From: Acetofilamentum sp.
GTDB taxonomy: Bacteria > Bacteroidota > Bacteroidia > Bacteroidales > JAFGXI01
Length of the DNA: 32,041 nucleotides
NCBI GenBank assembly: GCA_020720565.1
Contig: DYOK01000006.1
Span: 1 to 32,041, forward strand
Direction of reading: 5' to 3'
Position 1 is the first letter of the stretch. Every line of letters starts with the position of its first letter. A program made the translations under genes and the position numbers. A model generated the notes under the pieces. It saw only the letters and a list, made by a program, of their open reading frames with translations, ran no database searches and was not told the DNA's origin. Shown here in pieces: positions 9,760-30,721 of the stretch.

Positions 9760-10131
9760 TTATTTAAGTTCAACTTCTGCTCCTGCTTCTTCAAGTTTAG
9801 CTTTCAATGATTCAGCTTCTTCTTTAGAGCAACCTTCTTTAATGGCTTTAGGTGCAGCGTCAACTACTTCTTTAGCTTCTTTTAATCCAAGACCAGTTAA
9901 TTCTTTAACTAATTTTACTACTTGTAACTTTGCAGCACCACCGTTAACAAGAATTACATCGAATTCAGTTTTTTCGGCAACAGCGGCACCAGCAGCAGCA
10001 GCAGGAGCAGCTACTACAGCAGCAGCAGCAGGTTCAATACCGTACTCATCTTTAAGTACATTAGCTAACTCGTTTACTTCCTTAACAGTTAAATTAACCA
10101 ATTCTTCTGCAAGTTTTTTAATATCTGCCAT
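9760..10131 (-). CDS. rplL: 50S ribosomal protein L7/L12
   Basis: This is the acidic stalk protein of the large ribosomal subunit, 123 aa, which recruits translation GTPases. The N-terminal dimerisation helix ([18 protein letters not shown]) is followed by an Ala/Gly/Val-rich hinge (about residues 35-52). The C-terminal globular domain has the conserved [20 protein letters not shown] helix region and the final [12 protein letters not shown]. It lies 30 nt behind rplJ, whose product L10 anchors it to the ribosome. Confidence 0.98.
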
Positions 10132-18711: not shown

Positions 18712-18728
18712 GGTTTTTAAATTTGACT

Positions 18729-18762
18729 TCTATACATACCTTAAATCATGGTATAGATTTTT
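18729..18762 (+). terminator. Probable terminator of lepA
   Basis: TCTATAC (18729-18735) and GTATAGA (18751-18757) form a 7-bp AT-rich stem with a long loop that can pair further (ACC/GGT), followed by TTTTT. The stem is weak. Confidence 0.4.
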
Positions 18763-18788
18763 GAAATTGCAGTTAACTTGTCAAAAAT

Positions 18789-18923
18789 ATATCGTTGATT
18801 TCGACGATAATCTGAAATATCGTTAATTTCGACGATAATCCGAAATATCGTTAATTTCGACGATAATCTGAAATATCGTTGATTTCGACGATATTTTGAA
18901 ATATCGATAATTTAAACGATATT
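18789..18923. repeat. Five contiguous 28-bp dyad repeats upstream of satD
   Basis: Copies begin at 18789, 18817, 18845, 18873 and 18901 with a period of exactly 28 bp and no spacers. Copies 1-4 differ at only a few positions; copy 5 is diverged and truncated. Each copy holds an imperfect palindrome with arms TATCGT and ACGATA separated by 8 bases (copy 5 has TATCGA as left arm). The array ends 6 nt before the satD start codon. The fixed period, close to 2.7 helical turns, and the dyad in every copy look like an array of protein-binding sites. Confidence 0.9.
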
Positions 18924-18929
18924 TGTTGC

Positions 18930-19574
18930 ATGATAGCAGTTATTACAGGCGATATAATCGCGTCGAGGCATTTGGTGAACCAAGAAATATGGTTAGCACC
19001 ACTTAAAACGCTATTATCTACATGGGGTGAAAGACCCAAAACATGGAATCTGGATCGTGGTGATTTCTTTCAAATTGAGATTTCTAATCCAGAAGATGCT
19101 CTTATAAAAGCGTTTGAAATAAAGTCGTTAATCAAAAAAGCAACTCCACTCAATAACCACAAGAAAATAAGCACTATAGATGTTCGAATGGCTATTGGAA
19201 TAGGCGATAAAACATATTCTGGCGAAACCATATCGGAGAGTAACGGCCAAGCGTTCATATATTCTGGCGAAAAGTTTGATGTTTTAAAAAAAGAAGGCAT
19301 AACGATCGGCATTAAAACGCCATGGATAAATTTAGATGAAGAAATCAATTTATACCTAAAATTATCTCAAACTTTTATCGATAGTTGGTCGGTTTCATCA
19401 GCCGAATTAGTTAATCTAATCTTAAAAAACGGAAACACAAGCCAAGAAGAAATCGGACAAAAATTAAGTATAAAACAAAATTCTGTAAGCGGCCGATGGA
19501 ATAGATCTCATGCTGAAGAATTATTGGAGGTTGAAAAGATGTTTCGAAAAAAAGTAATGACGATACTCAAGTGA
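18930..19574 (+). CDS. SatD-family protein with C-terminal helix-turn-helix
   Basis: This 214-aa protein resembles the SatD family (PF16264). The N-terminal part carries the family signature AVITGDIIASR and, about 35 residues on, LDRGDFFQIEI; the conserved GD pairs resemble a nucleotide- or metal-binding fold, which is inference. The C-terminal segment (about 156-214, NTSQEEIGQKLSIKQNSVSGRW) is a helix-turn-helix, so the protein probably binds DNA. The ATG sits 6 nt after the 28-bp repeat array, so these sites are a natural candidate target for self-regulation. The stop codon overlaps the GTG start of the next gene by 4 nt (GTGA). The biochemical role of the family is not settled. Confidence 0.8.
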   Translation: MIAVITGDIIASRHLVNQEIWLAPLKTLLSTWGERPKTWNLDRGDFFQIEISNPEDALIKAFEIKSLIKKATPLNNHKKISTIDVRMAIGIGDKTYSGETISESNGQAFIYSGEKFDVLKKEGITIGIKTPWINLDEEINLYLKLSQTFIDSWSVSSAELVNLILKNGNTSQEEIGQKLSIKQNSVSGRWNRSHAEELLEVEKMFRKKVMTILK

Positions 19575-20296
19575 TAATACTCATCAAACTAATATTAGCA
19601 CATTTAATTGGAGATTTTCTTCTACAGCCAAAATCTTGGGTAGAGGACAAAGAAAGAGCCAAAATCAAATCAAACAAATTATACCTGCACACATTAATCC
19701 ATGGGCTATTAATCTTAATATTATTATGGAGTTTTAACAATTGGCTTTTAATGATATCTATAATGCTTAGCCACTATTTTATAGATCTTATAAAAGTATA
19801 TGCCCAAACTAAAAAAAATAATGCAAAATGGTTTTTGATCGATCAAATATTGCATTTTATTAGTATTTTAATTCTTTGTAAATTATTATTAAAGTGTGAT
19901 TTGCAATTGATTACGTTATTTCAAGATGTTACTATATGGATATATTTAGTGGCATTACTATTAATTACCAATGTTTCAAGGATACTTATACAAACCGTCT
20001 TACAAAATTGGGCAAAAGCATTAGAAACAAATAATAACGAAGCCTTAAACGATGCTGGTAAATATATAGGAATATTAGAACGCTTATTTGTCTTCATTTT
20101 TGTAATTACTAACAATTGGGAAGGAATTGGATTTTTATTGGCTGCAAAGTCGGTCTTCCGCTTTGGCGATTTAAAAGAATCAAAAGACCGAAAATTGACA
20201 GAATATGTACTTATTGGGACATTATTAAGTTTTGGACTGGCAATTCTAACGGGCTTAGCAGTGTTAAAATTAATTACAATAGTTAATGCTTTGTAA
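19571..20296 (+). CDS. DUF3307 integral membrane protein
   Basis: This 241-aa protein starts at a GTG that overlaps the satD stop codon by 4 nt, so the two are translationally coupled. It matches DUF3307 (PF11750): LILAHLIGDFLLQPKSWVED at the N-terminus with the conserved HL.GDF..Q pattern, then LYLHTLIHGLL and LSHYFIDLIKVY, which place His and Asp residues close to membrane helices. About six or seven hydrophobic segments span the chain. The conserved His/Asp set could bind metal; no function is established. SatD and DUF3307 genes occur together in other bacteria as well. Confidence 0.85.
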   Translation: MIILIKLILAHLIGDFLLQPKSWVEDKERAKIKSNKLYLHTLIHGLLILILLWSFNNWLLMISIMLSHYFIDLIKVYAQTKKNNAKWFLIDQILHFISILILCKLLLKCDLQLITLFQDVTIWIYLVALLLITNVSRILIQTVLQNWAKALETNNNEALNDAGKYIGILERLFVFIFVITNNWEGIGFLLAAKSVFRFGDLKESKDRKLTEYVLIGTLLSFGLAILTGLAVLKLITIVNAL

Positions 20297-20551
20297 ACAA
20301 TTTCCAAACAACAGAGATCTTTTTAACAAACGTTTAAATGAAATGAAACGAGAGATAAAATGAATATTTATGAACTAAAAACTTGAAACATTCAACGTAT
20401 AACAAATTAACAATAAAACCATTTAAGACATAAGAATCATTAGGAACTTCTGAATTAACACTTAGAACTTTCAACAAATAAACAACTCAATCTACCTAAG
20501 GTAGACGGGCAACTCAACAATCGTCAATCAAAAATCGTAAATTACAAACAG
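20297..20551. other. Low-complexity spacer with a 15-bp palindrome
   Basis: No gene is seen in this AT-rich spacer of short repeated words. TCTACCTAAGGTAGA (20491-20505) is a perfect palindrome around TAA, flanked by TTCAACAAAT and CAACTCAACAA. A closely related arrangement occurs at 30564-30624, also shortly before a gene starting ACAAACAGATG. Confidence 0.6.
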
Positions 20552-21184: not shown

Positions 21185-21475
21185 ATGAATCAAATTCAAT
21201 TAAACGATAGAATAATACCTCGCCAAGATATGATCGAAAGCAAGATTGATGGCGATTTAGTGATGATGAATCTCGAATTAGAACATTATTTTGGTTTAAA
21301 TTCTGTCGGGACAGCTATTTGGGACATGTTGCCTAAACAACCCACTTTTAACAGTTTGATAGAACAATTGATGCTCAAGTTTGAAATTGACCACGATACT
21401 TGTGTGAAAGAAACATCGGATTTTATAACGCTTCTCGAAACTCAAAAGTTAATAAGCATTGAAAAAGCGCATTAA
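21185..21475 (+). CDS. PqqD-like small protein (RRE fold)
   Basis: This 96-aa protein belongs to the PqqD superfamily (PF05402). PqqD-like proteins are RiPP recognition elements that bind leader peptides for modifying enzymes; in lasso-peptide clusters the same fold is the B1 protein. Seen here are a short N-terminal strand region (NDRIIPRQD), the typical DGDLVMMNLELEHYFGLNSVGTAIWDML segment (residues about 19-46) and the C-terminal helices. It overlaps the next gene, a lasso-B2-like protease, by 17 nt, which strongly ties the two. No precursor peptide gene is visible on either side. Confidence 0.85.
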   Translation: MNQIQLNDRIIPRQDMIESKIDGDLVMMNLELEHYFGLNSVGTAIWDMLPKQPTFNSLIEQLMLKFEIDHDTCVKETSDFITLLETQKLISIEKAH

Positions 21476-30450: not shown

Positions 30451-30721
30451 TTTTTGAATTATCAATTTTCTATTATGAATTAAAGATTAAAGATTTAAAA
30501 TTAAAGATTAAGAATTAATAATGAATCAACAAAAGAATTACCCTGCAACATTAAACCTGAAACCTTCAACAAATCGATCTACAAGAGGTAGATTTATCGA
30601 CCGAAGGTAGACCAGCAAATCAACAAACTAATCACGACAAACTTTTAACTTGAAACTTTAAACAAAACAACAAACCGCACTCAATTCCCCATTCGGGGGT
30701 CAGGGGGCTAAATACAAACAG
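30451..30721. other. Low-complexity spacer with palindromes and G-tracts
   Basis: No gene is seen. The first part repeats the word ATTAAAGATT with small variations (about 30477-30518). A hairpin ATCTAC/GTAGAT follows (30577-30593), then a second GGTAGAC word near 30606. Near the end CCCC-ATTC-GGGG (30688-30699) is followed by a second run of five G (30704-30708). Parts resemble the spacer at 20297-20551. Confidence 0.6.

Follow-up and report, generated by a model that had tools for sequence, protein, structure and literature searches.

The satD-DUF3307 gene pair found in the 32,041-nucleotide stretch of DNA analysed here (the window) is preceded by a periodic array of dyads, which is conserved across the family and whose half-site covaries with the recognition helix of SatD. 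We propose, as the likely reading of these data, that the array would be the operator of SatD, that SatD would repress the DUF3307 gene under the control of a signal nucleotide bound by its palm domain, and that the whole unit is a mobile cassette. The coordinates of its components are given in Table 1.

Table 1. Components of the satD-DUF3307 cassette, with positions in the window.
Feature	Position	Strand	Description and basis
Cassette, approximate extent	18712..20551	+	Between the lepA stop (18711) and the rdgB/HAM1 start (20552)
Putative operator array	18789..18921	.	Five 28-bp units; a periodic array also occurs in relatives
GATATTTG, near-match to the Bacteroidota -7 element TAnnTTTG	18918..18925	+	Read from the sequence; same position in many relatives
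satD	18930..19574	+	214 aa; class III cyclase-like palm domain (residues ~1-130) and C-terminal helix-turn-helix
SatD helix-turn-helix (residues 155-193)	19392..19508	+	AF2 helices, profile matches, covariation
SatD recognition helix (residues ~183-191)	19476-19502	+	Candidate specificity residues N184, S185 and G188
DUF3307 gene	19571..20296	+	GTG start; 4-nt overlap with satD; PF11750, E=4e-31

An earlier note, made from the sequence of this stretch, had described five 28-bp repeats with dyad arms upstream of satD, and these are real: Tandem Repeats Finder, run on the window, reported a period of 28, 4.8 copies, 90% match and a score of 210, and dyad matches with up to two mismatches numbered eight against 1.5 expected, a count that none of 100 shuffles reached. 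The arms TATCGT-N8-ACGATA, which the earlier note attributed to each repeat, are exact in four of them (18790-18809, 18818-18837, 18846-18865 and 18874-18893), the fifth (18902-18921) reading TATCGA-N8-ACGATA, with one mismatch; likewise, the distance from the array to the satD ATG is 8 nt and not the 6 nt given there. The half-sites are evenly spaced in the window array, so that two dyad centres are possible, and the one originally chosen is the right one because, in relatives with a period of 29, the TATnnn-N8-nnnATA spacing is unchanged and the extra nucleotide falls in the other gap. Across the whole genome, all exact matches to TATCGT-N8-ACGATA fall inside the array, so the repeat is not scattered far from satD, and we saw no second array of the dyad; single dyads with one mismatch numbered 17 outside the array, against seven for a reversed-pattern control. 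Elsewhere, the window contains an AT-rich tandem repeat of 7/14/21 nt (30478-30518), a GCA triplet run (9977-10031) and a gene for a PqqD-like protein (21185-21475), the closest model to which is that of the Bacteroidota lasso-peptide PqqD chaperone, matched under its cut-off.

Searches among relatives retrieved SatD from 11 of 99 genomes, and a scan of public genomes added 80 loci, all from Bacteroidota. To avoid SatD seeding, a second sample was seeded from DUF3307 alone, and SatD was found upstream in 48 of its 50 Bacteroidota loci. DUF3307 lies directly 3' of satD in nearly all loci, mostly with a 4-nt overlap identical to that previously described for the window, which we confirmed. Across 87 regions upstream of satD, we counted 1223 direct 6-mer repeats at offset 28 against 15 expected, around 80 times the shuffles, and 210 inverted ones at offset 14 against 13 expected; for the direct repeats, 77 of the 87 loci exceeded all 30 of their own shuffles. 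The earlier note had proposed aligning the regions upstream of satD-DUF3307 pairs, and arrays are indeed present in the great majority of them (109 of 138 loci at a 1% shuffle threshold, with gaps left free), with a period of 28 in most loci, 29 in some, and a mostly fixed inner spacing. This layout crosses phyla, because a Vibrio lentus conjugative plasmid carries the gene pair together with TTAGCC-N6-GGCTAA units placed 28 bp apart.

No significant upstream array was detected in the other 29 loci, several of which have arrays placed after satD. In locus L014, satD directly follows an ABC-F gene, and an array with a period of 29 sits between satD and DUF3307; the same gap harbours an array in L146, L150, L151, L153 and L155 (chance ≤0.014 each), and one that is weak or falls short of significance in L145, L148, L152 and L154. 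A clade that we had thought to be devoid of arrays was thus wrongly classed for most of its members, whose arrays are also found between the two genes. Since the array shifts to this gap in lineages where satD belongs to another operon, DUF3307, and not satD, seems to be what it constantly targets; the feature common to both layouts is an array preceding DUF3307.

The half-site varies by lineage, including ATCGT, ATTGC, ATCACC, ATTACC, ATCGGC and others, with constant outer A/T bases and a constant period. Each class of recognition helix has its own half-site: NSVSGR is paired with ATCGT, S[GA]VSGR with ATTGC, NSVSKR with ATCACC, S[GA]VSRR with ATTACC/ATTCC and SSVSER with ATCGGC. By residue, N184-S185 occurs with ATC and S184-G/A185 with ATT, and position 188 is G with GT/GC, K with ACC, E with GG/GT, R with ACC or CCT, and A/V with TA. 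When all 214 SatD columns were ranked by mutual information, the top predictors of the half-site were residues 184/185 for base 3 and residue 188 for bases 4 and 5. Relatedness was partly controlled with a tree of SatD residues 1-150, which leaves out the helix-turn-helix; in independent pairs, which make small and underpowered sets, joint change was seen in 5-6 of 7 for residue 188 (p 0.03-0.06 typical) and in 3-4 of 4 for residue 184, with almost none opposed in either case. Out of sample, the learned code beat shuffled pairing on 29 DUF3307-seeded loci (p=0.009; p=0.10 when only the 18 unique helices were used), and a Flavobacteria-like QAAVSRR was again paired with ATTACC. Additionally, in eight whole genomes the ATCACC dyad is confined to satD loci, namely those whose SatD has Lys at residue 188.

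Since half-site differences follow its recognition helix, SatD is the likely reader of the array. The idea that SatD binds its own array is hence well supported, at the level of sequence, by the upstream arrays, by their lack of scattering and by this covariation, and we consider it very likely that SatD is an array-binding regulator. The array could conversely be bound by some other regulator, or be an RNA-level or transposon-derived repeat, with SatD being incidental; the dyad could form an RNA hairpin, and iterons are another instance of periodic repeats, but we find this explanation highly improbable in view of the tracking of the recognition helix by the half-site, of the position of the main-group array upstream of the likely transcription start, and of an array that has no other copy in the genome and accompanies the cassette through differing neighbourhoods.

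Two arrays of differing half-site coexist in a single intergenic region upstream of satD in six loci (L017, L018, L019, L024, L025 and L028), where the proximal array is of the ATTACC/ATTCC type, in keeping with the R188 of the local SatD, and the distal one is of the ATCGT type; L030 contains only the distal (ATCGT) type, with a matching SatD. These loci look like operator turnover caught midway.

The -7 element of Bacteroidota has the consensus TAnnTTTG (PMC7366714). In the window, its near-match GATATTTG overlaps the last half-site (18916-18921) and ends 4 nt before the satD ATG, and a transcript starting from it would be a leaderless mRNA. In 36 of 73 loci, a distance of 4-12 nt separates the last half-site from the ATG, and many of these also read GATATTTG; in around half of the loci this half-site reaches the -7 box, either overlapping it or lying directly next to it, and others show an exact TAnnTTTG just past the array. 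The position of the array over the core promoter suggests repression, which is also favoured by the overlap of the last dyad with the -7-like box in the window. Alternatively, SatD might be an activator, recruiting RNA polymerase once assembled on an array that lies upstream of the promoter: in the L017-L033 type, an exact TAnnTTTG begins 6-8 nt past the end of the array, which covers the -33 region, where activators can work. We nevertheless consider activation unlikely, both from the loci in which the last half-site reaches the -7 box and because satD, in the form of a distant SatD, was reported as essential in S. pyogenes though accessory in the species (PMC11323703), which is easier to reconcile with losing a repressor that keeps something harmful in check than with losing an activator.

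As a repressor, SatD would bind the TATnnn-N8-nnnATA dyads as dimers, through its C-terminal helix-turn-helix, and these dimers would fill consecutive units of the array over the promoter and block it, so that DUF3307 would be repressed, usually along with satD; the binding or the loss of a ligand would then free the array and switch DUF3307 on. That SatD represses DUF3307 and has a nucleotide-sensing palm domain is, in our opinion, moderately probable. The promoter overlap and the essential but accessory satD of S. pyogenes are also compatible with an autoregulated pair resembling toxin-antitoxin systems.

The SatD family (PF16264) takes its name from the sat operon of Streptococcus mutans. 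The window SatD gives a weak full-length match to this family (E=0.004; 17.4 bits, under the curated cut-off of 29 bits), with the same domain order over ~195 positions, and 61 of 78 of its relatives match it (E up to 0.05), the best with E=4e-14; we thus treat it as a probable divergent relative of the family. Neither SatD nor the DUF3307 protein had a match in NCBIfam. The AF2 model of SatD (pLDDT 83) shows a palm domain, with a b-a-b-b-a-b-b-a-b fold, followed by the C-terminal helix-turn-helix that the earlier note had recognized, and which is borne out both by the modelled helices and by profile matches to HipB and sigma-70 region 4. A SatD-like protein in L016 (1252-1914) is lacking in GD motifs and in an accompanying DUF3307, and is encoded beside a glycoside hydrolase-like gene.

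All the leading PDB matches in structure searches with SatD were class III cyclases or GGDEF proteins, marginal though uniform in kind (best Foldseek match, E=0.0024, TM ~0.4), and profile searches with the N-domain placed class III adenylyl cyclases first, also with marginal values (Ma1120, E=0.006; 3mr7, E=0.009). In the alignment, D8, G44-D45 and R86-xx-IGIG match the metal and strand motifs of cyclases; the two metal aspartates, which align with those of Ma1120, are present in 89 of 89 (D8) and 88 of 89 (D45) SatD sequences, and the RxxIGxG strand is near-invariant. The two methods agree, with marginal statistics, in that the N-domain is probably a divergent class III nucleotidyl-cyclase fold. 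This gives content to the previous suggestion of a ligand at the N-terminal domain, which would be a nucleotide. SatD shares fold topology and aligned metal aspartates with class III nucleotidyl cyclases (Ma1120, 4wp8) and differs from them in being fused to a helix-turn-helix within 214 aa and in the absence of the canonical transition-state Asn/Arg pair, in place of which most Bacteroidota SatD have Ile/Val at 110 and Glu at 114 (motif-based alignment).

It is because of this absence that we do not file SatD as an active cyclase, and nucleotide sensing seems preferable to catalysis from the conserved residues; as both aspartates are kept and the canonical pair is missing, the N-domain would most likely bind a Mg-nucleotide as a signal instead of making cAMP. 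SatD could otherwise be an active nucleotidyl cyclase, or a related palm enzyme, with a second messenger acting on DUF3307 and with DNA binding only setting its own dosage. Such an enzyme would agree with the near-invariant aspartates and RxxIGxG strand and with a two-gene, palm-plus-membrane layout that resembles Panoptes (PMC12657218, PMC12657230), and Ma1120 itself is active with Ala replacing the Asn (PMC4215837). The substrate-specifying pair is not recognisable in SatD, however, with mostly Glu at the Arg position and Ile/Val at that of the Asn, and we regard enzymatic activity as quite improbable.

The second gene product is a membrane protein and a clear member of DUF3307 (PF11750; 108.3 bits, curated cut-off 23), with an all-helical model (pLDDT 92), a series of invariant His, Asp, Lys and Gln residues (H11, D15, Q19, H40, H68, D72, K75, D91, Q92 and H95) and no solved relative of its fold in a PDB search (best E 1.1). 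We found DUF3307 in 100 of 393 sampled Bacteroidota genomes, around a quarter, with exactly one copy in each. In Bacteroidota, SatD nearly always lies ahead of DUF3307, whereas phage contigs contain only the N-terminal half of the latter, mostly without SatD. Although a tblastn search of phage records with DUF3307 yielded no match, IMG/VR viral contigs (L166-L180) encode a divergent N-terminal half (~100-165 aa), with SatD not found there; this half could be a decoy used by phages or a minimal version of the protein.

The cassette occupies an insertion site that is empty in a same-genus genome (G001), where rdgB/HAM1 starts ~24 nt after lepA with nothing in between. The genes upstream of the cassette fall into 58 clusters among 87 loci, and hsdR follows it in nine loci, in seven of which hsdS precedes it, as identified by sequence match. 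Some of the loci within L017-L038 carry the cassette inside a type I restriction operon, flanked by hsdS and hsdR, and L017 and L021 also have a RhuM gene in the vicinity. Likewise, an IMG/VR contig (L144, 2992-4379) contains SatD-DUF3307 and a 29-bp repeat, and its other open frames are phage-like by eye. The cassette is mobile, because of the empty lepA-rdgB site, the varied neighbours, its presence on plasmids and on a phage-like contig, and its insertion in type I restriction operons; array, satD and DUF3307 travel together. This mobility, the genomic context and the S. pyogenes report suggest a guarded, possibly harmful effector, a role that DUF3307 would fulfil, and we hypothesize that the cassette functions in defence.

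Among known systems, RptR is a 9-kDa repressor of a restriction-modification defence island, with three 9-bp repeats and a conserved TAGCTA site (PMC12255303). The SatD unit resembles it as a putative autorepressor with a palindromic repeat series that overlaps the promoter and is tied to type I restriction genes, but it differs from RptR in the cyclase-like domain of SatD, in its units of 28/29 bp and in a site that has diversified. Panoptes, made up of mCpol and a 2TM effector, likewise combines, in two genes, a palm-type nucleotide domain with a membrane protein; SatD, by comparison, is not mCpol/Cas10 and contains a DNA-binding domain, and its partner DUF3307 is a different protein from the 2TM effector. 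Indeed, neither SatD nor DUF3307 matched mCpol or 2TM in PADLOC-DB 2023 (E 0.1), and a SAVED match, only at chance level, was discarded. The open-access literature that we searched names DUF3307 in one paper and the 'SatD family' in one, and for SatD it contains only an association with acid tolerance and essentiality; it does not describe the array, the half-site code or the cyclase-like fold of SatD, and we found in it no relevant paper treating SatD together with cyclases.

In its broadest form, which we offer tentatively, the cassette may be a mobile switch of the defence or stress type, in which a cyclase-derived nucleotide sensor silences a harmful membrane effector via a private operator array, with operator and helix having re-evolved together many times to yield a natural recognition code. 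Our results join two widespread families in a single regulatory unit that is open to testing and has a defined, predicted operator, and the changes in helix and half-site constitute a natural data set for reading a recognition code. They also provide a concrete hypothesis for why satD is essential though accessory in a Streptococcus species, and suggest that operons of restriction systems may harbour a new membrane effector.
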